A stretch of 59,234 nucleotides of DNA from Lachnospiraceae bacterium (GTDB lineage Bacteria; Bacillota; Clostridia; Lachnospirales; Lachnospiraceae): NCBI GenBank assembly GCA_022799355.1, contig JAAWOG010000016.1:1-59234 (forward strand), read 5' to 3'. The first letter of the stretch is position 1; every line of letters begins with the position of its first letter. Below are positions 50,622-59,234 of the stretch, in pieces. The notes under the pieces are model-generated. The model searched no databases. It was not told the origin of the DNA and worked only from the letters and a program-made list of their open reading frames with translations. Position numbers and translations under genes: made by a program.

Positions 50622-51428
50622 ATGGTTATAGACAGCCACGAACATATCATGTTCCCTATAAAGACGCAGTTAGAGAAAATGGATGCGGCGGGAGTGGATA
50701 AAACGATATTATTCTGTACTGCGCCGCATCCGGAGAAAGCAGGCGCGCTAAACGAGCTTGAAGCGGAAATGACAGCCCTGAATATGATTTTAGCGGGTTC
50801 TAACACTAAGGAGGAAAACATCCGCCGCCTGAAAAAGAATATTTCGGAAGTAGTGGAAGCCGTGAAAGAATACCCTGACCGTTTCTTGGGCTTTGGAGCT
50901 GTTCCTTTAGGAATGGAACTGGAAGAAACTGAGGAGTGGATTGACACGCAGATCGCATCTAATTCTTTGTATGGGATTGGGGAGTTTACTCCCGGCAGTG
51001 GGCAGCAGATCATGCAGTTGGAAACAGTCTTCCAAGCCATGAAGAATACAAGGATTTACCCGGTTTGGGTACATACCTTCCACCCGGTTGCGATGGATGG
51101 CATAAGGCTCTTGATGTCCTTATGTGAAAAATATCCCGACGTTCCCGTTATCTTCGGCCACTTGGGCGGTTCAAACTGGATGGAGGTAATCAAATTTGCA
51201 AAGGAGCATGATAATGTTTACTTAGACCTTTCTGCGGCATTTGCTTCCATTGCTACTAAAATGGCATTGACGGAACTGCCGGAAAGGTGTCTGTACAGTT
51301 CAGATGCCCCTTATGGAGAACCATATCTGTACAGGCAGCTTATTGAATTTGTAAGTCCGGATAAAAGGATTGCGGAAATGGCGTTAGGGGAAAATATATC
51401 CCGGTTACTGGGATTAAACGAAAGATAA
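50622..51428 (+). CDS. Amidohydrolase-like TIM-barrel protein
   Basis: The 268-residue product begins MVIDSHEHIMFPIKTQLEKM, with the metal-binding H-x-H of the amidohydrolase-2 family. It continues with FGHLGG (metal His), NVYLDLSA and LYSSDAPYGEPYLY (metal Asp). It resembles the family of small decarboxylase or hydrolase enzymes with metal in the barrel. An AGGAGG lies before ATG 50622. The gene points away from HxlR, which should control it. Confidence 0.85.
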   Translation: MVIDSHEHIMFPIKTQLEKMDAAGVDKTILFCTAPHPEKAGALNELEAEMTALNMILAGSNTKEENIRRLKKNISEVVEAVKEYPDRFLGFGAVPLGMELEETEEWIDTQIASNSLYGIGEFTPGSGQQIMQLETVFQAMKNTRIYPVWVHTFHPVAMDGIRLLMSLCEKYPDVPVIFGHLGGSNWMEVIKFAKEHDNVYLDLSAAFASIATKMALTELPERCLYSSDAPYGEPYLYRQLIEFVSPDKRIAEMALGENISRLLGLNER

Positions 51429-51433
51429 AGCTA

Positions 51434-51469
51434 ACCGCCGCTATGGGAAATCGCCCCATATGCGGCGGT
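51434..51469 (+). terminator. Long hairpin after the amidohydrolase gene
   Basis: ACCGCCGC-TATGGG pairs with CCCATA-TGCGGCGGT with one extra base, a 14-bp stem with a short loop. There is no clear T run, so it may stop transcription only in part. The rest of the gap to 51733 holds only the direct repeats listed next. Confidence 0.6.
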
Positions 51470-51601
51470 CTGTCATTTCCCCTGCACTGGATTATCTGCT
51501 TGGCAGTTGGGGAGGTTAGAGGTAATATGCAGATGGCATTATCGGACGAAAGGCGAAAAACTTTAGAGCTGATTTTCATGTTTTTATGAAAGACAAAAAG
51601 A

Positions 51602-51633
51602 TTTCGTTCCCTTTCAAATAGGGTTTCGTTCCC
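51602..51633 (+). promoter_or_regulatory. LytTR-type direct-repeat operator
   Basis: TTTCGTTCCC occurs twice, at 51602-51611 and 51624-51633, exactly 22 bases apart. Tandem sites of 9-10 bases at about 21-22-base spacing are the known target layout for LytTR response regulators (AgrA type sites contain a CGTT or CAGTT core). They lie 100 bases before the LytTR regulator gene, fitting self-control of the operon. A promoter nearby is not clear. Confidence 0.65.
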
Positions 51634-51732
51634 TCCCGGCGAAATACGCAAAATATCTGCCGATATAAAAAGTAAAAAGAACTGCCCGTGGGGAAGCTAA
51701 AGCCCAAGGGAAATGAATTGCAGGTGAGAAAC

Positions 51733-52443
51733 ATGAACATAGCTGTATGTGATGACGAGCAAGCCATCCGTGAACAGATAAATGAACTGATCGTAAAAGA
51801 AAAACCGGGCGTATGCCCGGAACTGTATGAGACAGGGGACGGGCTGCTTGCCGCCGGGAAGCAGTTTGGCATTGTTTTCCTTGACATACAGATGGAGGGG
51901 ACAGACGGGATTGAAACAGCGAGGAAGCTCCGGGAAAGGGATGAAGATACCATACTGATCTTCATAACGGGCATCCGGGAGTATGTTTTTGAGGCGTTTG
52001 ACGTGGCGGCGTTCCACTATCTGCTAAAGCCGGTTGAGGAAGATAAATTCCGGGAGGTGTTCCGGCGGGCGGAAAGGGAACTGGAAAAGAGGAAAAAACA
52101 GCAGCGGGAGACGGTATTCGTCAAGACGAGGAACCGGAGCTTCACGCTGGAAAAGGACAGCATCCTCTATGTTGAGAGCAGGGGCAAGAAGGTGGAAATC
52201 CATACCCAGGGGGAGACCATAGAGGCATACGCCTCCATGAACGAGATGGAAGCACAGCTTGGGGAAGGGTTTTACCGCTGCCACAGGGGGTATCTGGTAA
52301 ACATGGCGTATGTGGCGGAATACGATAATGAGAGCATTGTCCTGAATAATTGGGAGTATGTCTATCTGGCAAAGGAAAAGTACGGGGAGTTTGTAAAAGC
52401 TTATATGCGGTATCTGAGAAACGGGGTGAATGCGGATGGCTGA
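51733..52443 (+). CDS. LytTR-family response regulator (AgrA-like)
   Basis: The start ATG 51733 follows AGGTGAG and gives about 236 residues; the extension to 51688 has no ribosome binding site. An N-terminal receiver domain with acceptor Asp in IVFLDIQMEGTDG (about residue 55), FITGIREYVF and LLKPVEEDKF is followed by a LytTR DNA-binding domain (about 135-236), with VESRGKKVEIHT and YRCHRGYLVNM. It overlaps the kinase gene by 8 bases. It should bind the direct repeats at 51602 and activate the operon and cassette below. Confidence 0.9.
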   Translation: MNIAVCDDEQAIREQINELIVKEKPGVCPELYETGDGLLAAGKQFGIVFLDIQMEGTDGIETARKLRERDEDTILIFITGIREYVFEAFDVAAFHYLLKPVEEDKFREVFRRAERELEKRKKQQRETVFVKTRNRSFTLEKDSILYVESRGKKVEIHTQGETIEAYASMNEMEAQLGEGFYRCHRGYLVNMAYVAEYDNESIVLNNWEYVYLAKEKYGEFVKAYMRYLRNGVNADG

Positions 52444-53881
52444 ATATATCATGAGGATGCTCAGCATCCTGCTGTATCTGTTTGAGGGGTACTGCATACA
52501 GTTCTTTTTTGGCAGGTTTGCGGAGCCTAAGATGCGCAGGCTGAGGAATGCGCAGTGGACGGCAGGGATTGTGTGGATTTTGATAAGGATTGTCAGTGGA
52601 GCTTTATTTCGTGAAACAGACAGCGTGACGCTGGTTGCAGGACTGATTTTTAACACTGTTGTTTTATTTATTTTCTGTGTGGGGTGGTATAAAGGAAATA
52701 TTTTGTTGAAAATTTTTCTGACCATCCAGTTTATCTCCCTGCGTGAGCTGGCAGTTTGGGCGGGGTATAGCTTCCTCTATATCGGGAACAGCCTGATGGA
52801 TTTTCTGATACAACACGGGGCAGGTGGCAGTTTGGCATCGGCTGGTTATTTACCTGTGGCAGCAGGCGTACTGGCCTGCATTTCCGTGGCATTTGTGGAA
52901 GCCATAGAGTGTGTCCTGCTTTTTGTTTTCATAAAGAAAATCGTAAAGAGTTATCATTGCAGGGAAAAAGGGCGGATGGATAAGGAAGTGGTGTTATATC
53001 TGCTCCCGGCTGTGGCAGGGGTTCTGGTCGCGGTGCTGGTACGCCTGCTGATGATCGCAGTTACGGATGGTGTCCCTGTGCTGCTGTATGACAGGCATCC
53101 GGCATTGTACCTCATCATTCCCATGATAGCGCTTGTGCTGCTTGGGGCGATTGTTTTCAGTTTCCGCATTTATCAGGATATGGCAGCCCTGCAGGAAGAA
53201 CGGGCGGAAAAGATCATACTGGAAAACCAGATCACGCAGATGCAGAGTTCCATGGTGGAGATGGAACATCTGTATGACGGGATACGCTCGGTCAAGCATG
53301 ATATGAAAAACCATATGGCAGTCCTGCAGAACCTGATTCGGAAAAGGTACAGCGGGGAAGATGAAGAAATCCGGCAGTATTTTGAGGATATGTGCCAGTC
53401 CGTGGAGCAGCTCGACAGCAGGGTGCATACGGGCAATGCGGTCAGTGATGCGGTGGTGGGAAGCAAGTTCCGCTATGCGGCAAAAAAGGTGAAAGGAATC
53501 CGGCTGGATGCTAAAGGCTTCATGCTGTCGGATGCCGTTACGATAAAGGCTTATGATATGGGCATCATCCTTAATAACGGACTGGACAATGCGATTGAAG
53601 CCTGCATGAGAATGAGGGAGAAACAGCCAGATGCAGAAGCCTATATCACGATCCGGTCTTTCCGGGCAAAGAATATGTTTTTTATAGAAATTGAAAACAG
53701 CTTTGATGGTACGGCACTGTTCGATAAGGACAGCGGCCTTCCCATATCAACAAAAGAGGATAAGGAGGTGCATGGGATAGGGTTAAAGAATATCAGAAAA
53801 TGTGCAGTAAAATATGGCGGCGATCTGGACTGTATTGTGAAAGGCAGCAGGTTCATTCTGTCGGTCATGGTAAAAAATTAA
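52436..53881 (+). CDS. GHKL-type sensor histidine kinase (AgrC-like)
   Basis: About 481 residues from ATG 52436; ATG 52430 is also possible. Six to seven membrane helices fill residues 5-260. The cytoplasmic part has the phosphorylated His in SVKHDMKNHMAVLQNLI and a GHKL ATPase with N-box LNNGLDNAIEAC and G-box GIGLKNIRKC. Helical membrane sensors of this type recognise peptides or cyclic autoinducers. No separate peptide gene is visible in front of it. The next gene starts 24 bases later. Confidence 0.9.
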   Translation: MAEYIMRMLSILLYLFEGYCIQFFFGRFAEPKMRRLRNAQWTAGIVWILIRIVSGALFRETDSVTLVAGLIFNTVVLFIFCVGWYKGNILLKIFLTIQFISLRELAVWAGYSFLYIGNSLMDFLIQHGAGGSLASAGYLPVAAGVLACISVAFVEAIECVLLFVFIKKIVKSYHCREKGRMDKEVVLYLLPAVAGVLVAVLVRLLMIAVTDGVPVLLYDRHPALYLIIPMIALVLLGAIVFSFRIYQDMAALQEERAEKIILENQITQMQSSMVEMEHLYDGIRSVKHDMKNHMAVLQNLIRKRYSGEDEEIRQYFEDMCQSVEQLDSRVHTGNAVSDAVVGSKFRYAAKKVKGIRLDAKGFMLSDAVTIKAYDMGIILNNGLDNAIEACMRMREKQPDAEAYITIRSFRAKNMFFIEIENSFDGTALFDKDSGLPISTKEDKEVHGIGLKNIRKCAVKYGGDLDCIVKGSRFILSVMVKN

Positions 53882-53905
53882 CCAGAAGGAAGGAGAAGAT
53901 TTATT

Positions 53906-54637
53906 ATGAGTATTTTAGGAGTAAACGGGGCTTTGGCGGGTGCATACCAGTACGCCAATAGGACACAGAAAGCAGGAAGAAGCAAAGCGAGTTTCACAGA
54001 GCAGTTACAGAAAACGGGTGAAGCGGCGGATACATCAAAGGTGGAAGCCTATCAGAAGTATTTGGAACAGAAGTATGGGCCTATCATGGTTCAGAATGTC
54101 GGCAGTGACCAGAGGAGCATGGATGCGTTAGGAACAGGGACATACGGGATGAATAATATCGCAATCGCCCCCAATATTCTGGAGGAGATGGCAAATAACC
54201 CGGAAAAGGCAGCCCATTATGAAAAAATCATAGACGATTTTTTTGCTTCACAGCCAATGGTAAAAGCACAGATGGCGGCGGGAGGGTTTGAGATCCAGTC
54301 ATATGGTGTGGTCATTCATCCGGACGGCACGGCGAATTATTATGTCTGCGGTGATGTGTCTCCCGAAAAGAAAGCAAAGATAGAAGCCCAGATGAAGGCG
54401 GAGGACGAGGAGAAAGCAAAACGCAGGCAGCAATACCGGGAACAGAGCGAAAAGGCAGCAGAAAAGCGGAGGACGGAGACAGAGCTTGCATACAGACGGC
54501 AGACTATGGCGGAGTTCTTTGCAAACCGTACGGCGAATGCGGGCAGGGTTGCATATGCAGGGACGCCAGAGACTATGAGTTCTGTGATTGCGGCTTATGA
54601 AACGGGTGCTTTATCCATGCCGGGCATTTTGAAGTAA
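53906..54637 (+). CDS. Cassette protein 1: unknown protein with M-x-I-x-G opening
   Basis: The 243-residue product opens MSILGVNGALAGAYQYANRT and continues with SFTEQLQKTGEAADTSKVEA. It has no signal peptide or membrane helix. Residues 60-140 have mixed helix and strand, e.g. IAIAPNILEEMANNPEKAAH and YGVVIHPDGTANYYVCG. Residues 145-215 are a long charged coiled coil. The end is GALSMPGILK. It is close in sequence to cassette protein 2 throughout. GGAAGGAGAAG precedes ATG 53906, 24 bases after the histidine kinase gene. Confidence 0.7.
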   Translation: MSILGVNGALAGAYQYANRTQKAGRSKASFTEQLQKTGEAADTSKVEAYQKYLEQKYGPIMVQNVGSDQRSMDALGTGTYGMNNIAIAPNILEEMANNPEKAAHYEKIIDDFFASQPMVKAQMAAGGFEIQSYGVVIHPDGTANYYVCGDVSPEKKAKIEAQMKAEDEEKAKRRQQYREQSEKAAEKRRTETELAYRRQTMAEFFANRTANAGRVAYAGTPETMSSVIAAYETGALSMPGILK

Positions 54638-54676
54638 AAGTAGATAACCGCTCGGACTTATTACAAGAGAGCAGAG

Positions 54677-54701
54677 GCAGCCCCGAATGACAGAGGGGTG
54701 C
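54677..54701 (+). other. Intergenic hairpin with loop GAATGACAGA (first)
   Basis: CCCC and GGGG flank the loop GAATGACAGA (54685-54694), with outer G and C partly paired. It lies 40 bases after the stop of cassette protein 1. The same loop sequence recurs after protein 2 in a different stem. Confidence 0.6.
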
Positions 54702-54736
54702 GATAAGTGATTTGATCAGGAAGGAGACGATTTATT

Positions 54737-55465
54737 TTGAGCATATCAGGAGTAAATGGTGCTTTGGCAAATATGTACCAGTATGCAAACAGGACACAGA
54801 AAGCAGGAACAAGCGGGGCAAGTTTCACGGAGCAGTTACAGAAAACGGGTGAAGCGGCAGACATGTCAAAGGTGGATGCTTATACGGAATACCTCCGGTC
54901 AAAGTATGGCAATGTGAGAATCCAGAGTGTCGGGAAAGACAAACAGAGCCTTGACAGGGCAGGAAAGAGCATGAGCGGCAGTGATGTTGTGATTGCACCG
55001 AATATTCTGGAGCAGATGGCAAACGATCCGGAAAAAGCGGCTTATTATGAGGGCAAGATAGATGATTTCTTTAACGCCACACCAAGATTAAAGGCACAAT
55101 TTGCGGCACAGGGGCTTGATTACCAGCCATGCGGTGTGGTCGTCCATGAGGATGGGAGCGTTACCTATATCGGCGGCTGTGGTGATTCCCCTGAACGCGT
55201 GGCAGAAGTGAATGCAATCAATAAAGCAAAACGGGAGAAAGAAGCGGCACAGCGGAAAGCTGGCATGGAGCGCAGTCAGGAAGCGGCAGAGGAACGGAAA
55301 GAGCAGTTGGAGATTATCTATAAGCAAAAGACCATGACGGAGTTTCTTTCCATCCGCACAATGGATACAAGCAGAGTTACATATACAGCCACACCGGAGG
55401 TCTTGAGTTCTGCAATTACAGCTTATGAGCAGAACATCATGGAGGCATCGGGCATTTTGAAGTAA
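54737..55465 (+). CDS. Cassette protein 2: paralogue of protein 1
   Basis: The 242-residue product starts at TTG 54737, with the same upstream sequence as protein 1 (AAGGAGACGATTTATT then TTG). It opens MSISGVNGALANMYQYANRT, continues SFTEQLQKTGEAADMSKVDA and is highly similar along its length, including APNILEQMANDPEKAAYYE and ITAYEQNIMEASGILK at the end. One clear difference is an added GDVS / GCGDS Gly-Cys segment near residue 140. It is the result of tandem duplication with later divergence. Confidence 0.7.
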   Translation: MSISGVNGALANMYQYANRTQKAGTSGASFTEQLQKTGEAADMSKVDAYTEYLRSKYGNVRIQSVGKDKQSLDRAGKSMSGSDVVIAPNILEQMANDPEKAAYYEGKIDDFFNATPRLKAQFAAQGLDYQPCGVVVHEDGSVTYIGGCGDSPERVAEVNAINKAKREKEAAQRKAGMERSQEAAEERKEQLEIIYKQKTMTEFLSIRTMDTSRVTYTATPEVLSSAITAYEQNIMEASGILK

Positions 55466-55502
55466 AGCGGGATATGCCCGGACTTACCATAAGGGGGCAT
55501 GG

Positions 55503-55528
55503 GCGGCTCCGAATGACAGATGAGCCGC
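55503..55528 (+). other. Intergenic hairpin with loop GAATGACAGA (second)
   Basis: GCGGCTC and GAGCCGC form a perfect 7-bp stem around C-GAATGACAGA-T. The loop is identical to the one at 54685, but the stem sequence is different. It is located about 38 bases after the stop of cassette protein 2. Confidence 0.65.
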
Positions 55529-55558
55529 AATACTAAAAATAAATGGAGGACTTGAAAA

Positions 55559-56062
55559 ATGGGTATTAACGGGATTGGAGTAGCAGGCTACCCGGTGACA
55601 GGGTACACGGCGAGAAAGGCAGAAAGAAGTGCGGAATCCGGGGCTGTAGGATTTATGGAAACTGTGACGGAGAAAGCGGAACAGGATAAAAAAGTAGATT
55701 ATGATGAAAAAGCCTTTGCATCCGTTGGGGCAAATGCACCAGAGGAAGTGAAGCAGGCATGGCTGGAGGCAGCAAAGGCGATTGGTGCGAATGGGCTTGG
55801 TATGTCTGGGAACGGTATGCTGACACATTTATCACAGATGATGGTGCAGCGGGCTGAAAACTGGATGAACGGCATCGGCGGGACAAACGATATCCTCGGA
55901 AGTACAGTGCAGTCAGCAATCAAGGCAACGGAACAGGCACTTTATGATTTAGACCATCCGCTTTCCCCGGACAGCGTAAAGAGCATTGAGGTACAGAGGC
56001 AGCAGGTGAAGGAGAGGGCGTTTTATCAGTTATTTTTAGATAAGCTGGGTGCGCTTGTGTAG
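55559..56062 (+). CDS. Cassette protein 3: unknown, NGIG opening
   Basis: The 167-residue product begins MGINGIGVAGYPVTGYTARK and then has GAVGFMETVTEKAEQDKKVD, in line with the F-x-E/N/D pattern of the other cassette members. The remainder is helical, e.g. EVKQAWLEAAKAIGANGLGM and MVQRAENWMNGIGGTNDILG. No signal peptide is seen. GGAGG precedes ATG 55559. No similarity to a known family is recognised. Confidence 0.7.
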   Translation: MGINGIGVAGYPVTGYTARKAERSAESGAVGFMETVTEKAEQDKKVDYDEKAFASVGANAPEEVKQAWLEAAKAIGANGLGMSGNGMLTHLSQMMVQRAENWMNGIGGTNDILGSTVQSAIKATEQALYDLDHPLSPDSVKSIEVQRQQVKERAFYQLFLDKLGALV

Positions 56063-56112
56063 TAGCGGTTTAGAAGTAATAAAAAATTGATAATGATGGA
56101 GGACTTAAAGAG

Positions 56113-56703
56113 ATGAGCGTAAATGGAATTGGAGCAACAGGATATTCGATGGCAGGATATGGTGTAGGAAAGACACAGAGGAACATGGCAGGAAAGAATT
56201 TTACAAATGGAGCGATACAAAGTTCCCGCGCGAATGCTTCAGAAAAGAGTTCATATAATGGGCCTTATCATCTTCGGATGGGCGGAATGGTATCAAGGGC
56301 ATTGAGCGACGGGGGAAATGTTACAGTCTATGAGGCAGATGGGTATACATCAGAAAATCCGATGGTGAAAGTTGTGACTACATCGGCGGACGGGCAGGAA
56401 CACGAACAGTTCATTGATCCGAGGACGGTTGATATATCAAAGGCCACAGAGAATGAGATGCTGGCCTTGAATGCGTATCTGGTCAAGGAAGGGAAACTTG
56501 ACGGGAATGTATATTCATCAAGCGTACTGAGTGGGGCTGATTTGTCGGATGCAGATGTGTCAAGTGTTATGAATTTGAAAAAGAACTTTTTTAGCAATGT
56601 GAAAGAAATGATGGAAATGCAGTATAACGCCCACAATTTTGCCGGATATGCACAGTACAAGAAGATTTGGGATGTATACGACCTGTTCATGAGCAGGAAG
56701 TAA
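56113..56703 (+). CDS. Cassette protein 4: unknown, NGIG opening
   Basis: The 196-residue product begins MSVNGIGATGYSMAGYGVGK and has KNFTNGAIQSSRANASEKSS. The middle (VTVYEADGYTSENPMVKVV and GQEHEQFIDPRTVDISKATE) looks beta-rich, and the end is helical. No export signal is seen. ATG 56113 follows ATGGAGGAC with a spacing of 8. Its N-terminal block is very close to those of proteins 3 and 6, while the rest differs. Confidence 0.7.
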   Translation: MSVNGIGATGYSMAGYGVGKTQRNMAGKNFTNGAIQSSRANASEKSSYNGPYHLRMGGMVSRALSDGGNVTVYEADGYTSENPMVKVVTTSADGQEHEQFIDPRTVDISKATENEMLALNAYLVKEGKLDGNVYSSSVLSGADLSDADVSSVMNLKKNFFSNVKEMMEMQYNAHNFAGYAQYKKIWDVYDLFMSRK

Positions 56704-56820
56704 AGCCCGATGGCTACATATCCTCAATGCCCCACAGAGGATAAGCAGGCATCCCCGGTTTCCGGCAGATTGGCAAATCGGGGAGCAGGAGGCGGCTTGC
56801 TGTAGAAAGGACATTTTAGC

Positions 56821-57357
56821 ATGGAGATAACGGGAATTAAGAATATACATCCGGCGGCAGGTAAAGCATCATCCAAGAAAGGCTGGAAGTTGACGGACGC
56901 CCTCCGGGAGAAGATAACGGCGCTTGCGAAGGAGGACGCGGCGCAGAATGTCTATATGGGAAATCAGTTCCTCGCCCTGCGGAAAAGCGAGGTTGCCAAA
57001 GTAGCGCCGGACAGGGCTGTGCTGATCGGCAGAATGAACCAGGCCATGTCTGGCGATATGGGAAACATGAAGCAGATAGAGGAGGCGGACAGGAGGTGGC
57101 TGTGCATCCTGTTTGGAGAGCCCTATGAAGCTGAGTTCCAGTCCGGCGGCGGAGTCCATGTGTATGATGAAAACGGTGACGAAATCCTTACATACACCGC
57201 AGGCGTGGGCTGGCATGAGAAGGAGTCGAAGGCAGAGACAGAAGTGCATGGCGTTTTGAAGGCTGCCTACTATGATGCGTACCATGCGGCAAGGCAGGAG
57301 ATCAATTCCGGCATTGCGGGGATGGAAGTGCAGGGCGGGTTTGATGCGAGGGCATAG
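56821..57357 (+). CDS. Cassette protein 5: unknown, divergent opening
   Basis: The 178-residue product opens MEITGIKNIHPAAGKASSKK and then GWKLTDALREKITALAKEDA. It shares M-x-I-x-G-I with the others but lacks the GY repeat. The second half (EAEFQSGGGVHVYDENGDEI, YTAGVGWHEKESKAETEVHG) is beta-rich and ends in an Ala-rich helix. A weak AAAGGA precedes ATG 56821. The 117-base gap before it contains a CCCCG / CGGGG stem. Confidence 0.6.
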   Translation: MEITGIKNIHPAAGKASSKKGWKLTDALREKITALAKEDAAQNVYMGNQFLALRKSEVAKVAPDRAVLIGRMNQAMSGDMGNMKQIEEADRRWLCILFGEPYEAEFQSGGGVHVYDENGDEILTYTAGVGWHEKESKAETEVHGVLKAAYYDAYHAARQEINSGIAGMEVQGGFDARA

Positions 57358-57417
57358 GTGGTACATGGATTCCGATGGGGAGCAGGGAAGGCAATAGAGA
57401 ATGGAGGAGATTTGGAA

Positions 57418-57789
57418 ATGAACATAAACGGAATAGGAGCAGCAGGGTATCTTGCCATGTATGGGATGAGAGGAGCGGAAAGGGGTGTGGCAGAAAAGAG
57501 CTTTGCTGACGAGATAAGCAAAGCCGCAGCGAGGCTGGAAACAGAAGAAGTGGATTCCGACAAAGACATAGCAGAGATGCGTCCGATAGGAGAAAATGTT
57601 GGTGAAACCTCAGAACTGGAAGATAAGTATTGTTCGCTTTGCGGTTCCATGATCAAAGAGGATGGCAGTTGTCCTATGTGCGGTGTTCCCACATTCATAT
57701 CCGGCAACGGGCGGTCTGGCAATCAGAAAATTGCACAGGCAGCCAGTTCCCAAGCAGTATCCGGGAACCAGAAAATCAGGATTCGGTAG
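57418..57789 (+). CDS. Cassette protein 6: NGIG opening and zinc ribbon
   Basis: The start is ATG 57418, since GGAGGAG lies just before it and the protein then opens MNINGIGAAGYLAMYGMRGA like proteins 3 and 4. KSFADEISKAAARLETEEVD follows, giving the F-x-D pattern. A four-cysteine zinc ribbon YCSLCGSMIKEDGSCPMCG comes near residues 79-97. About 123 residues. The longer frame from 57358 is a shadow without a ribosome binding site. Confidence 0.7.
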   Translation: MNINGIGAAGYLAMYGMRGAERGVAEKSFADEISKAAARLETEEVDSDKDIAEMRPIGENVGETSELEDKYCSLCGSMIKEDGSCPMCGVPTFISGNGRSGNQKIAQAASSQAVSGNQKIRIR

Positions 57790-57901
57790 GGGTAATACAT
57801 AAGCACCACATGAAGAAAACTAATAATGCACAAAGGATAAAAGGGAATCGGCAGAAAGGCTGGTTCCCTTGTTCCACATCAGTGCGGGGAGGCGGTTGTC
57901 A

Positions 57902-58195
57902 ATGGAAAAGATCAGATGCCCGAATCCTAAGTGCGGGCGGCACATCCTTGACATTGAGGAAATGCCGCCGGGCGAGACGGTGCTGGCATTCCCCGCAATA
58001 CATTTAAAAACGGTAAAAGAGAGCGATACATACATTTTGGAGGGCGTGCTGCGTTTCACAATAAATGTGGATTGCAGCACGCCCTTTTTGACTTTAAAAG
58101 GAGAAAACACGGATTATTTTGTAAGAAAATGCCGCCTGCAGGGCAGGCAGGACGAAACCACCCAGGAGGACAGAGACGACAGGGACACCCGATAA
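57902..58195 (+). CDS. Small zinc-ribbon-like protein, element type
   Basis: The start at ATG 57902 gives 97 residues beginning MEKIRCPNPKCGRHILDIEE, with one Cys-x4-Cys pair and later single cysteines, followed by a beta-rich part and a charged Asp/Arg-rich tail. The frame includes the 11-bp inverted repeat with T run at 58042-58089. The start has only a weak GGAGG at a distance. It resembles short genes found near the left ends of integrative conjugative elements. Confidence 0.5.
   Translation: MEKIRCPNPKCGRHILDIEEMPPGETVLAFPAIHLKTVKESDTYILEGVLRFTINVDCSTPFLTLKGENTDYFVRKCRLQGRQDETTQEDRDDRDTR
58042..58089 (+). terminator. Strong hairpin and T run, inside an open frame
   Basis: GGGCGTGCTGC pairs perfectly with GCAGCACGCCC (11 bp) and TTTTT follows. 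The structure is that of an intrinsic terminator but lies within the frame 57902-58195. Either the frame is not a gene past this point, or the gene is attenuated. Confidence 0.6.
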
Positions 58196-58421
58196 AGCAG
58201 CCGGGACGGCTGCACTTTGCCGGGTGTTTTCTGTTGTTCAAGGAAAGGACAGGCCATACCGAGGGGCGGTTCCGGAGGGCTTCCCGGCGGGCGGCACCGG
58301 CAGGCGCCGGGGAAGCCGGAACGAAATGCTGTCCCCAGGAAAGGGGATACCATGGGCATGGCACGAGCAGGGAACTGGCTCCCTACACCCGCGGCCAGAC
58401 ATCATATTTTTTCTGTACATA

Positions 58422-58453
58422 CCGCAGCCTTTAGGGGGACTGCGGAATTTTTT
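58422..58453 (+). terminator. Terminator in the leader before the sigma-like gene
   Basis: CCGCAG pairs with CTGCGG around a 12-base loop, followed by AATTTTTTT. It is the first of two terminators in the 456-base stretch 58196-58651, which has no supported gene. Confidence 0.6.
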
Positions 58454-58517
58454 TATTCGACACATTTCTATCTGTTTCCCAAGAAGAATACAAAAAGACA
58501 CATAGTTTTTATTGCGG

Positions 58518-58550
58518 GCGTACCGGACATTCTGCCGGTGCGCTTTTTTT
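58518..58550 (+). terminator. Second terminator in the same leader
   Basis: GCGTACCGG pairs with CCGGTGCGC (one T-G pair), followed by seven T. Together with the structure at 58422 it suggests control by termination and antitermination before the sigma-like gene. Confidence 0.65.
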
Positions 58551-58602
58551 GCGCCCTGGAATGCGGGCATCAGCCGCCGTTCCGGGGCCGTGCGCCGCCC
58601 TT

Positions 58603-58640
58603 CCAGTCTTGAAAGCCATTTAACCAAATTTCAAGACTGG
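58603..58640 (+). promoter_or_regulatory. 12-bp inverted repeat covering the ribosome binding site
   Basis: CCAGTCTTGAAA (58603-58614) and TTTCAAGACTGG (58629-58640) are perfect inverted copies, 14 bases apart. The right arm runs into GGAGGG, the ribosome binding site of the gene at 58652. It may be an operator or an RNA structure that hides the binding site. Confidence 0.6.
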
Positions 58641-58651
58641 AGGGAATCTGA

Positions 58652-59044
58652 ATGAAAATTGAATACAAGTTTGTTGATGGAACCGTGACGGAGATCGAGG
58701 TGGACGGAAGCCTCGGAGAATTTATGCTTGATCTGAAGAACGAAGGGGACAGGGTGGAAAGGAAGGAAACGCGCCGCCATGTCCTCCTGTCAGCGGTTGA
58801 CCCGGAAGACCGTTATTTTGATTCGGGGCGGGACACGCCGGAGGAGCTTGCCAGGAAGGACGAGCTTGAGCGGCTTGCTGCAGCCATAGGAAGGCTTCAG
58901 CCACAGCAGAGGGAGCTTTTGCGCCGTATTTACTGGAATGGTGAGAAACAGAAGGATATTGCCGCCGAGGACGGGGTGTCGGAACGCGCCATCACAGGAA
59001 GGATGAAAAAAATCTATGCTGCCTTAAAAAAATTTATGGATTAG
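58652..59044 (+). CDS. Sigma-70 region 4-like HTH protein, conjugative-element type
   Basis: The 130-residue product has a charged N-terminal half and a region 4-type helix-turn-helix: IGRLQPQQRELLRRIYWNGE, KQKDIAAEDGVSERAITGRM. Short proteins of this form stand near the start of Tn916/Tn1549-like conjugative elements, where they help control transfer genes. There is no region 2, so it is a partial sigma factor. A GGAGGG lies before ATG 58652. Confidence 0.8.
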   Translation: MKIEYKFVDGTVTEIEVDGSLGEFMLDLKNEGDRVERKETRRHVLLSAVDPEDRYFDSGRDTPEELARKDELERLAAAIGRLQPQQRELLRRIYWNGEKQKDIAAEDGVSERAITGRMKKIYAALKKFMD

Positions 59045-59123
59045 GGGGGTTCAGTTTTGTGTTTCCCGTGGCCTATATGTGAGGGGCAAAAATACAGCCC
59101 CTAAGAAATGGAGGTCATGGTTT

Positions 59124-59234
59124 ATGGGACACACGTTGAGGATCAGTGTTTCAAAGGAGCCGGCATCCGGCGGGATCGTGAGCTGCCGCCATATCTCCGT
59201 GAGGGAGCGTTTCTTACGCTTCCTCCTTGGGGAG
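59124..59234 (+). CDS. Partial small protein of conjugative-element type, cut by the window edge
   Basis: ATG 59124 follows GGAGG and the frame runs to the right edge with MGHTLRISVSKEPASGGIVS, then CRHISVRERFLRFLLGE. This opening is typical of a short ORF that follows the sigma-like gene in Tn1549-type integrative conjugative elements. The function is unknown, and the C-terminus is outside the window. Confidence 0.6.
   Translation, partial: MGHTLRISVSKEPASGGIVSCRHISVRERFLRFLLGE

Follow-up and report, generated by a model that had tools for sequence, protein, structure and literature searches.

Why should six small proteins with different bodies, encoded side by side behind a sensor pair, begin with the same few residues? 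The question is raised by a 59,234-nt stretch of DNA (the window, meaning the whole stretch that was analysed) from a Lachnospiraceae bacterium (GCA_022799355.1, contig JAAWOG010000016.1), in which a plus-strand run of genes encodes a LytTR response regulator, a GHKL sensor kinase and the six small proteins (P1 to P6, here called the cassette). We consider it probable (roughly 0.68) that P1 to P6 are exported via the flagellar type III machine and that positions 51641-57789 make up one flagellar-regulon operon. The evidence, computed directly in each case, lies in the heads of the proteins and a conserved phenylalanine within them, in an RNA element that also precedes the hook gene flgE, in a sigma-28-type promoter pattern and in the co-occurrence of the cassette families with FlhA.

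The common head and its phenylalanine

An earlier note on this DNA had described a start of the form M-x-[IV]-x-G-[IV] in all six proteins, and this is what we find (I/V3 and I/V6 in 6/6), together with the NGIG-type start that it ascribed to three of them (NGIG-[VA]-[AT]-GY in P3, P4 and P6). P1 (53906..54637, plus strand like every window feature given below) and P2 (54737..55465, TTG start) carry the head, a gate-recognition-motif (GRM)-like FTEQL at F30 and a DUF6033 body (E 2.3e-25 and 1.3e-33, respectively), with a long helix in P2. P3 (55559..56062) joins the head and FMETV at F32 to a body without assigned family, and P4 (56113..56703) joins an NGIG head and FTNGA at F30 (an incomplete FxxxPhi) to a four-strand body. 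P5 (56821..57357) has a short head without F motif, while P6 (57418..57789, its start being 57418 and not 57358) has an NGIG head, FADEI at F29 and a zinc-ribbon-like CxxC..CxxC body.

Homologous loci were collected with a P1/P2 profile, the best 80 of 161 confirmed relatives giving 79 named loci and the window. The strict head opens 168 of the 334 proteins that make up the two largest cassette clusters (27/63 after dereplication, which reduced the 334 cassette proteins to 63 and 499 other proteins to 408), as against 15 of the 563 other proteins of the same loci, 12 of which were inspected and resemble additional cassette members. As a DNA pattern, M-x-[IV]-[NS]-G-[IMV]-G has four matches genome-wide, three of them within the cassette. 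The head pattern is thus enriched in cassettes, although about half of the members lack it in its strict form.

That the head is a shared module follows from the P4-family profile, which reaches P6 (E 2.6e-8) and P3 (E 1e-5) through its first 41-44 columns only; four further head-only matches occur in other genomes (G047, G163, G076 and G176). In the AlphaFold models the confidence (predicted local distance difference test, pLDDT) stays below 50 over residues 1-28 of P2 and 1-51 of P4, followed by better-predicted bodies (mostly 80-96 over residues 41-200 of P2). A crude hydropathy scan detected no transmembrane- or Sec-like stretch in P1-P6, and transmembrane-like segments were found in 0 of the 63 dereplicated cassette proteins vs 125 of the 408 others. 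The mean cysteine content is 0.89% in cassette proteins vs 1.89% in the others.

The stretch F-[TMA]-[END], which had been noticed in five of the proteins, was recovered at F29-F32, as FTE at F30 (P1 and P2), FME at F32 (P3), FTN at F30 (P4) and FAD at F29 (P6), and it is absent from P5. In P1 and P2 it belongs to a FxxxPhi motif (F30-L34, at 53993..54007 and 54824..54838, respectively; native-substrate profile, alignment A4), and FxxxPhi is the FlhB-binding motif of rod/hook subunits (PMC4183434). F30 stands in all 45 rows of A4 (P1, P2 and 43 homologues) with L, V or M always at +4; in the P4 family position 30 is F in 25, Y in 3 and V in 2 of 30 rows, and 13 of the 14 P3-type rows have F32. 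Few residues of the head are kept as well as this F within families (alignments A4 and A5 took 43 of 45 and 29 of 31 of the picked homologues).

For comparison with native substrates we took 39 FliK and Flagellar_put proteins from 20 Lachnospiraceae genomes (that of the window and 19 others); in 38 of these proteins F-x-x-x-[LMIVF] is found at F27-F47 (the set leaves out one Flagellar_put protein, L144, with a mis-called start). A motif profile built from these 38 pieces gave at least 6 bits in 16 of the 63 dereplicated cassette proteins vs 17 of the 408 others (p 3e-7), and in 2.3% of shuffles; P1 and P2 each score 8.7 bits at F30, and P6 scores 6.6 at F29. A full FxxxPhi is found in only part of the cassette families (P3 has FMETV, which fails the profile, P4 FTNGA and P5 none).

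The reading of the head that we favour is that of a signal for flagellar type III export, the candidate partner being the export gate, FlhB. The earlier proposal that a common head on different bodies serves as a targeting or docking tag fits these findings and gains a candidate partner, but only about half of the cluster members have the strict head, and the F motif is missing from canonical DUF6033 proteins. Binding to FlhB through the same motif (PMC4183434) could also be the business of flagellar-regulon proteins that stay in the cytoplasm as gate regulators and couple the LytTR sensor to export. A kinase/regulator pair does head the operon, and the P6 zinc ribbon suits the cytoplasm; we nevertheless judge this improbable, for a single head without predicted structure on different bodies suits a passenger signal, several different families may stand within one locus (e.g., L109), and the cysteine content is low.

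A leader RNA in common with the hook gene

Within the window P2 and P3, and only these, are preceded by a 72-base element of two hairpins (54645..54716 and 55471..55542, respectively), each a copy of a leader of flgE, a link to the hook gene that the earlier note had not noticed. The flgE leader is defined by two covarying hairpins, a GGA and a GA[AC]UGACAGA loop, and a position upstream of flgE, and all of these were found. Searches relied on two covariance models with rough E-values, R1 from cassette copies only and R2 the combined model (15 of the 19 flgE loci discussed below are in its training set); R2 gives the two window elements, themselves training sequences, E-values of 5.2e-9 and 1.4e-13.

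In the genome to which the window belongs, the cassette-only model R1 also matches the intergenic stretch that precedes flgE (C55:27185-27253, equal to L007:7185-7253). Of 20 other flagellar loci of Lachnospiraceae, 19 contain flgE, and R1 places the leader before 13 of these 19 at E<=0.01, two more matching at 0.2-0.3, the level of stray matches; at E 0.1-0.6 it also matches sites away from flgE, and weak single matches are therefore untrustworthy. R2 finds all 19 loci, four of them new (E 2e-4 to 0.02), with one stray match at 0.02. Four flgE genes, including that of the window's genome, all have the Pfam domains Flg_bb_rod, FlgE/F/G D1 and Flg_bbr_C. At class level R2 matches 39 of 138 genomes, once each save for the window's genome (five matches), and in the 29 loci retrieved from the other 38 (L232-L260) flgE comes next in 28. 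Two R2-positive genomes have no FlhA match (G256 and G321), and in the latter flgE follows the element.

The pairing of the element was assessed by alignment. In the corrected structure 90% of the cells of 29 aligned cassette copies pair; a first, hand-written structure was out of register (38% of cells paired) and was replaced. As the cassette copies were chosen by their conserved loop and the flgE leaders by R1, the following pair counts lean towards structure: compensatory cells number 36 vs 13 in shuffles (0/500) for the cassette copies and 53 vs 18 (0/500) for 20 flgE leaders taken alone, and pairs changed on both sides number 9 vs 6.8 (22/500) and 11 vs 7.5 (0/500), respectively. A measure of further pair types did not rise above shuffles in either set (90/500 for the cassette copies, 400/500 for the flgE leaders).

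Among the 79 cassette loci, R1 has 195 matches at E<=0.001, distributed over 66 loci and all on the cassette strand, and the loop motif occurs in 49 of 144 intergenic gaps behind genes of cluster 0. The following gene was identified for 180 of the 195 matches, at a median distance of 20 bases, and 152 of these 180 genes have a loose head-like start vs 153 of 563 background proteins. R1 also matches at E 1e-5 and 4e-4 in a genome without FlhA match (G003), and the gene behind the one of these two matches that was retrieved looks unrelated. Rfam returned only chance-level matches, none above the gathering score, for window positions 51000-59234 and two flgE leaders. A structured RNA leader of flgE is present in many Clostridia, and it is of interest apart from the cassette.

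Further copies accompany related genes elsewhere in the same genome. A second operon (L211:698-6706, contig C23) comprises a sigma-28-type promoter, a LytTR gene, a kinase, the leader RNA and cassette genes, and L212:1041-3764 (contig C26) holds more head-bearing genes and one leader copy.

Promoter, flagellar genes and neighbourhood

The pattern GAAA-N14-GCCGATAT, of the sigma-28 (SigD/FliA) type, occupies 51641..51666 as the putative promoter of the operon, at a position repeated across loci, and 66 bases separate it from the probable ATG of the LytTR response regulator (51733..52443, longest open reading frame from 51688; Pfam Response_reg 2.5e-17, LytTR 1.1e-19). The GHKL sensor histidine kinase follows (52430..53881; HATPase_c_5 2.3e-22), so that a LytTR sensor pair does stand directly before the cassette, as had been proposed. 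A response regulator of the same cluster is present in 59 and a kinase in 62 of the 80 loci, alongside cassettes of diverse proteins; in the two clusters, 65 of 70 response regulators and 67 of 69 kinases are directly related to the pair in the window, and a Pfam check of three response regulators (window, L045 and L211) recovered LytTR in 3/3.

Of the 69 response-regulator genes (the window included and near-identical loci kept), 21 have a sigma-28-type site no more than 300 bases upstream, vs 4 of 571 other genes (p 2e-18), and all 21 belong to the 65 direct relatives of the window's regulator. Before kinase genes it was found in 0/68 cases and before individual cassette genes in 3/267, 0/62 and 0/29, none beyond chance, given rates of 0.4-0.7% in shuffles (0.4% for the response-regulator set). 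The second operon (C23/L211) has TAAA-N14-GCCGATAC before its LytTR gene, and 9 of 27 canonical DUF6033 genes are preceded by a sigma-28-type promoter. It looks as if the flagellar sigma factor activates the operon, in place of the LytTR protein or in addition to it.

The window's genome is that of a flagellated organism (FlhA, FlgE, FlgD, FliK and Flagellar_put are encoded on C55). Among 250 Lachnospiraceae genomes (249 genera; 129 with FlhA), DUF6033 was detected in 81, and FlhA accompanies it in 80 of these vs 49 of the 169 genomes without DUF6033 (both 80, DUF6033 alone 1, FlhA alone 49, neither 120; Fisher p 1e-29), in a test that, like the others of its kind here, assumes independent genomes, an assumption that does not hold fully, and makes no correction for phylogeny. 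FlhA is likewise present in 29 of the 31 genomes with the P4 family (p 1.4e-7; the exceptions are G159 and G227) and in 16/16 with family A2, which includes the DUF3879 member L065 (p 2e-5), and the negative control, the bacterial microcompartment protein BMC, gave 41/74 (p 0.49). At class level FlhA was found in 14 of 15 DUF6033-positive genomes vs 113 of 291 overall, and in 12/12 with DUF6033 above the cut-off, 8 of them being Lachnospiraceae.

These data bear on the idea that the head docks a non-flagellar partner and that the flagellar link is indirect, through shared lifestyle or regulon. P4 and P5 do lack a full FxxxPhi and canonical DUF6033 proteins have no F motif near residue 30, as such docking would allow; we hold it to be very unlikely in the face of the hook-gene leader, the sigma-28-type promoter, an F30 conserved with its hydrophobic residue at +4, and the near absence of DUF6033 where FlhA is missing.

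In the neighbourhood of related cassettes further flagellar genes were encountered. In G106 the cassette lies between flagellin and a FliS-like gene, and on contig C45 of the window's own genome a borderline DUF6033-like gene (just over or just under the cut-off) is followed by a FliD_C-like gene. In G511 some 5 kb separate DUF6033 from FlhA and a sigma factor upstream of it, and a FlxA-like gene adjoins it; in G384 a che operon is followed by a sigma gene, and DUF6033 comes about 6 kb after the latter, beyond several other genes (in all of these loci, gene names other than those searched for were assigned by eye). The FliD_C-like genes and the FliS-like gene in related cassettes, and a leader that is the hook gene's own, would also suit accessory parts of the flagellum itself, in its axis or cap (e.g., hook-associated proteins), instead of freely secreted proteins. 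We regard this as a poor prospect too: no window protein exceeds the cut-off for an axial family, 49 of the 129 FlhA-positive Lachnospiraceae genomes have no DUF6033, and the bodies are strongly different. Export of the six proteins as passengers is the reading that we retain.

Some observations in these loci stand on their own. On C45 (L009:7900-9906) the DUF6033-like protein has 437 aa with GFLDHIL near residue 36, and the 220-aa FliD_C-like protein behind it has, by eye, a FlgL-like start. In two loci of two other families (L206:5021-15380 and L207:8209-15557) DUF6033 genes lie, by eye, amid a cluster resembling peptide-maturation and ABC-transporter genes, five of them in tandem in L206. 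Open frames of about 210-300 aa (G184:C28, G166:C53, G096:C29, G206:C18, G164:C38, G045:C6, G016:C220 and G173:C9) match only positions ~312-555 of the FlhA profile and may be stand-alone relatives of the FlhA cytoplasmic domain. In the window a sigma-70 region 4-like gene (58652-59044) lies downstream of the cassette and may mark the edge of a mobile element.

Regarding the bodies, P1 (90 bits) and P2 (117 bits) are members of DUF6033 (PF19498; curated cut-off 25 bits), whereas P3-P6 have no match to DUF6033 and none above cut-off to a curated family. The two had been taken for a recent tandem pair; their mutual identity is 55%, while their nearest homologues in other genomes share 93% (P1) and 86% (P2), and the duplication is an old one. 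P5-like proteins are encoded in L129/L130 and at L208:8190-8687. A zinc ribbon had been proposed for one body, and the CxxC..CxxC of P6 is indeed present and kept by three homologues (L081, L109 and L119), but its Pfam zinc-ribbon matches all stay under the cut-off. Fold searches gave a best PDB match of E 1.5 with the P2 model and of E 0.38 with the P4 model (query TM-scores <0.2, taken as noise), and solved structures searched by sequence with both profiles gave no match below E 0.07. Open frames of about 800 aa in G122:C106, G171:C64 and G004:C7 contain the P4 body domain in more than one copy. Named isolates that carry close relatives of the P1/P2 type are Eubacterium plexicaudatum ASF492, Schaedlerella arabinosiphila DSM 106076 and Parablautia intestinalis D8-82.

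Proposed export route and its place among known systems

We infer transcription, docking, export, release and a role of the RNA along the following lines. The sigma-28-type promoter would drive the LytTR/GHKL pair and the six small proteins as one operon, transcribed once sigma-28 becomes active, which happens upon completion of the first hook-basal body. Through their heads the proteins would bind to FlhB in hook-basal bodies that have not yet left the rod/hook stage, the hydrophobic N-terminus would then open the export gate, and the bodies would pass the growing hook-basal bodies to be set free outside the cell. Docking at that stage would explain how a signal of the early class can go with late transcription. 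The copies of the flgE leader would put the translation of P2 and P3 under the post-transcriptional control of the hook, through the same factor, for which CsrA is our guess because of the conserved GGA.

A bolder version would see in the flgE leader a portable RNA address that couples hook translation to the export gate in Clostridia; gut Lachnospiraceae would have copied leader and rod/hook N-terminal signals onto fast-diversifying passengers, and the hook-basal body would have become a LytTR-tuned secretion system for non-flagellar proteins. We offer this tentatively, and think it rather doubtful.

Several points count against export by this route. With the native-motif profile P3 (-2.1 bits), P4 and P5 fall under zero, and 47 of the 63 dereplicated cassette proteins stay below 6 bits; a looser F...[LIVM] test (positions 22-45, genes contiguous with the kinase) gave 25/76 vs 69/260 (p 0.31) and, not being significant, was replaced by the native-substrate profile and the conservation within families. 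In the nine-row alignment A1 F30 is not invariant (L045:9887-10612 differs, having its F motif further on), canonical DUF6033 proteins are without an F motif near residue 30, and their loci have the leader in only 1 of 30, namely L023, which itself lies within a cassette. The distance from residue 3 or 6 to F29-F32 amounts to 23-29 residues, and the figures of Bryant et al. are 19 as the minimum, 26 for efficient FlgD export and, in another construct, 30 for substantial export (PMC8983047). One genome, G235, has DUF6033 without FlhA, and the tests of co-occurrence assume independence of the genomes. P6 has four cysteines, and cysteines are unusual in exported flagellar proteins. In the window overall, 4 distinct sigma-28-type sites vs 2.95 in shuffles amount to chance level, and the weight of the promoter pattern thus lies in its repeated position; the pattern was moreover fixed after a first scored scan, with the same outcome. 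Lastly, sigma-28 genes usually belong to the late class, whereas the signal of the cassette is of the early class.

The Fed proteins of Campylobacter are non-flagellar proteins secreted through the flagellum. Cia and FspA of the same genus are likewise non-flagellar proteins secreted by the flagellar apparatus (PMC5223770, PMC7910587, PMC3145565), and the kind of system proposed here is therefore known. Like them, the cassette proteins would be dispensable for building the flagellum and would leave by its export apparatus; unlike them, they belong to a Gram-positive host and have their own LytTR/GHKL pair and a hook-gene leader. With the early-class substrates FlgD, FlgE and FliK of Salmonella they have in common an unstructured N-terminus without Sec signal (PMC8983047, PMC10936197, PMC4183434), and they depart from these in bodies unrelated to axial proteins, in a transcription that looks sigma-28 (late) dependent and in a full FxxxPhi that only part of the families possess. 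An RNA tied to the hook gene is also known from Campylobacter jejuni, in which the small RNA FlmE/CJnc230, processed from the flgE transcript, lies downstream of flgE and acts as an sRNA (PMC11187230); our element lies upstream of flgE and of cassette genes. As to families, P1 and P2 match DUF6033 and add to it the F30 motif missing in canonical members, and DUF3879 (PF12995) is matched by a neighbouring protein that a different locus, L065, encodes; the Pfam titles of both give no function. A literature search found no paper on DUF6033 or DUF3879 and, by title and start of abstract, none on flagellar effectors of Lachnospiraceae or Clostridia, LytTR-linked flagellar secretion or a flgE leader or mRNA that matches this system. 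The cassette, its regulation and the leader that it shares with the hook gene appear to be new.

Signals borne by the mRNA are an old question in type III export, and a leader common to the hook gene and the cassette makes it testable with two short sequences; with the same leader the hook gene of many Clostridia gains a structured RNA, for which three stretches searched in Rfam gave no match. Mammalian guts commonly harbour flagellated Lachnospiraceae, of whose secreted proteins little besides flagellin is known to us. Our results suggest that the flagellar export machine may serve gut bacteria for the release of proteins unrelated to swimming; if this is true, the flagella-dependent secretion of diverse proteins would give gut bacteria, named isolates included, a new contact with what surrounds them.

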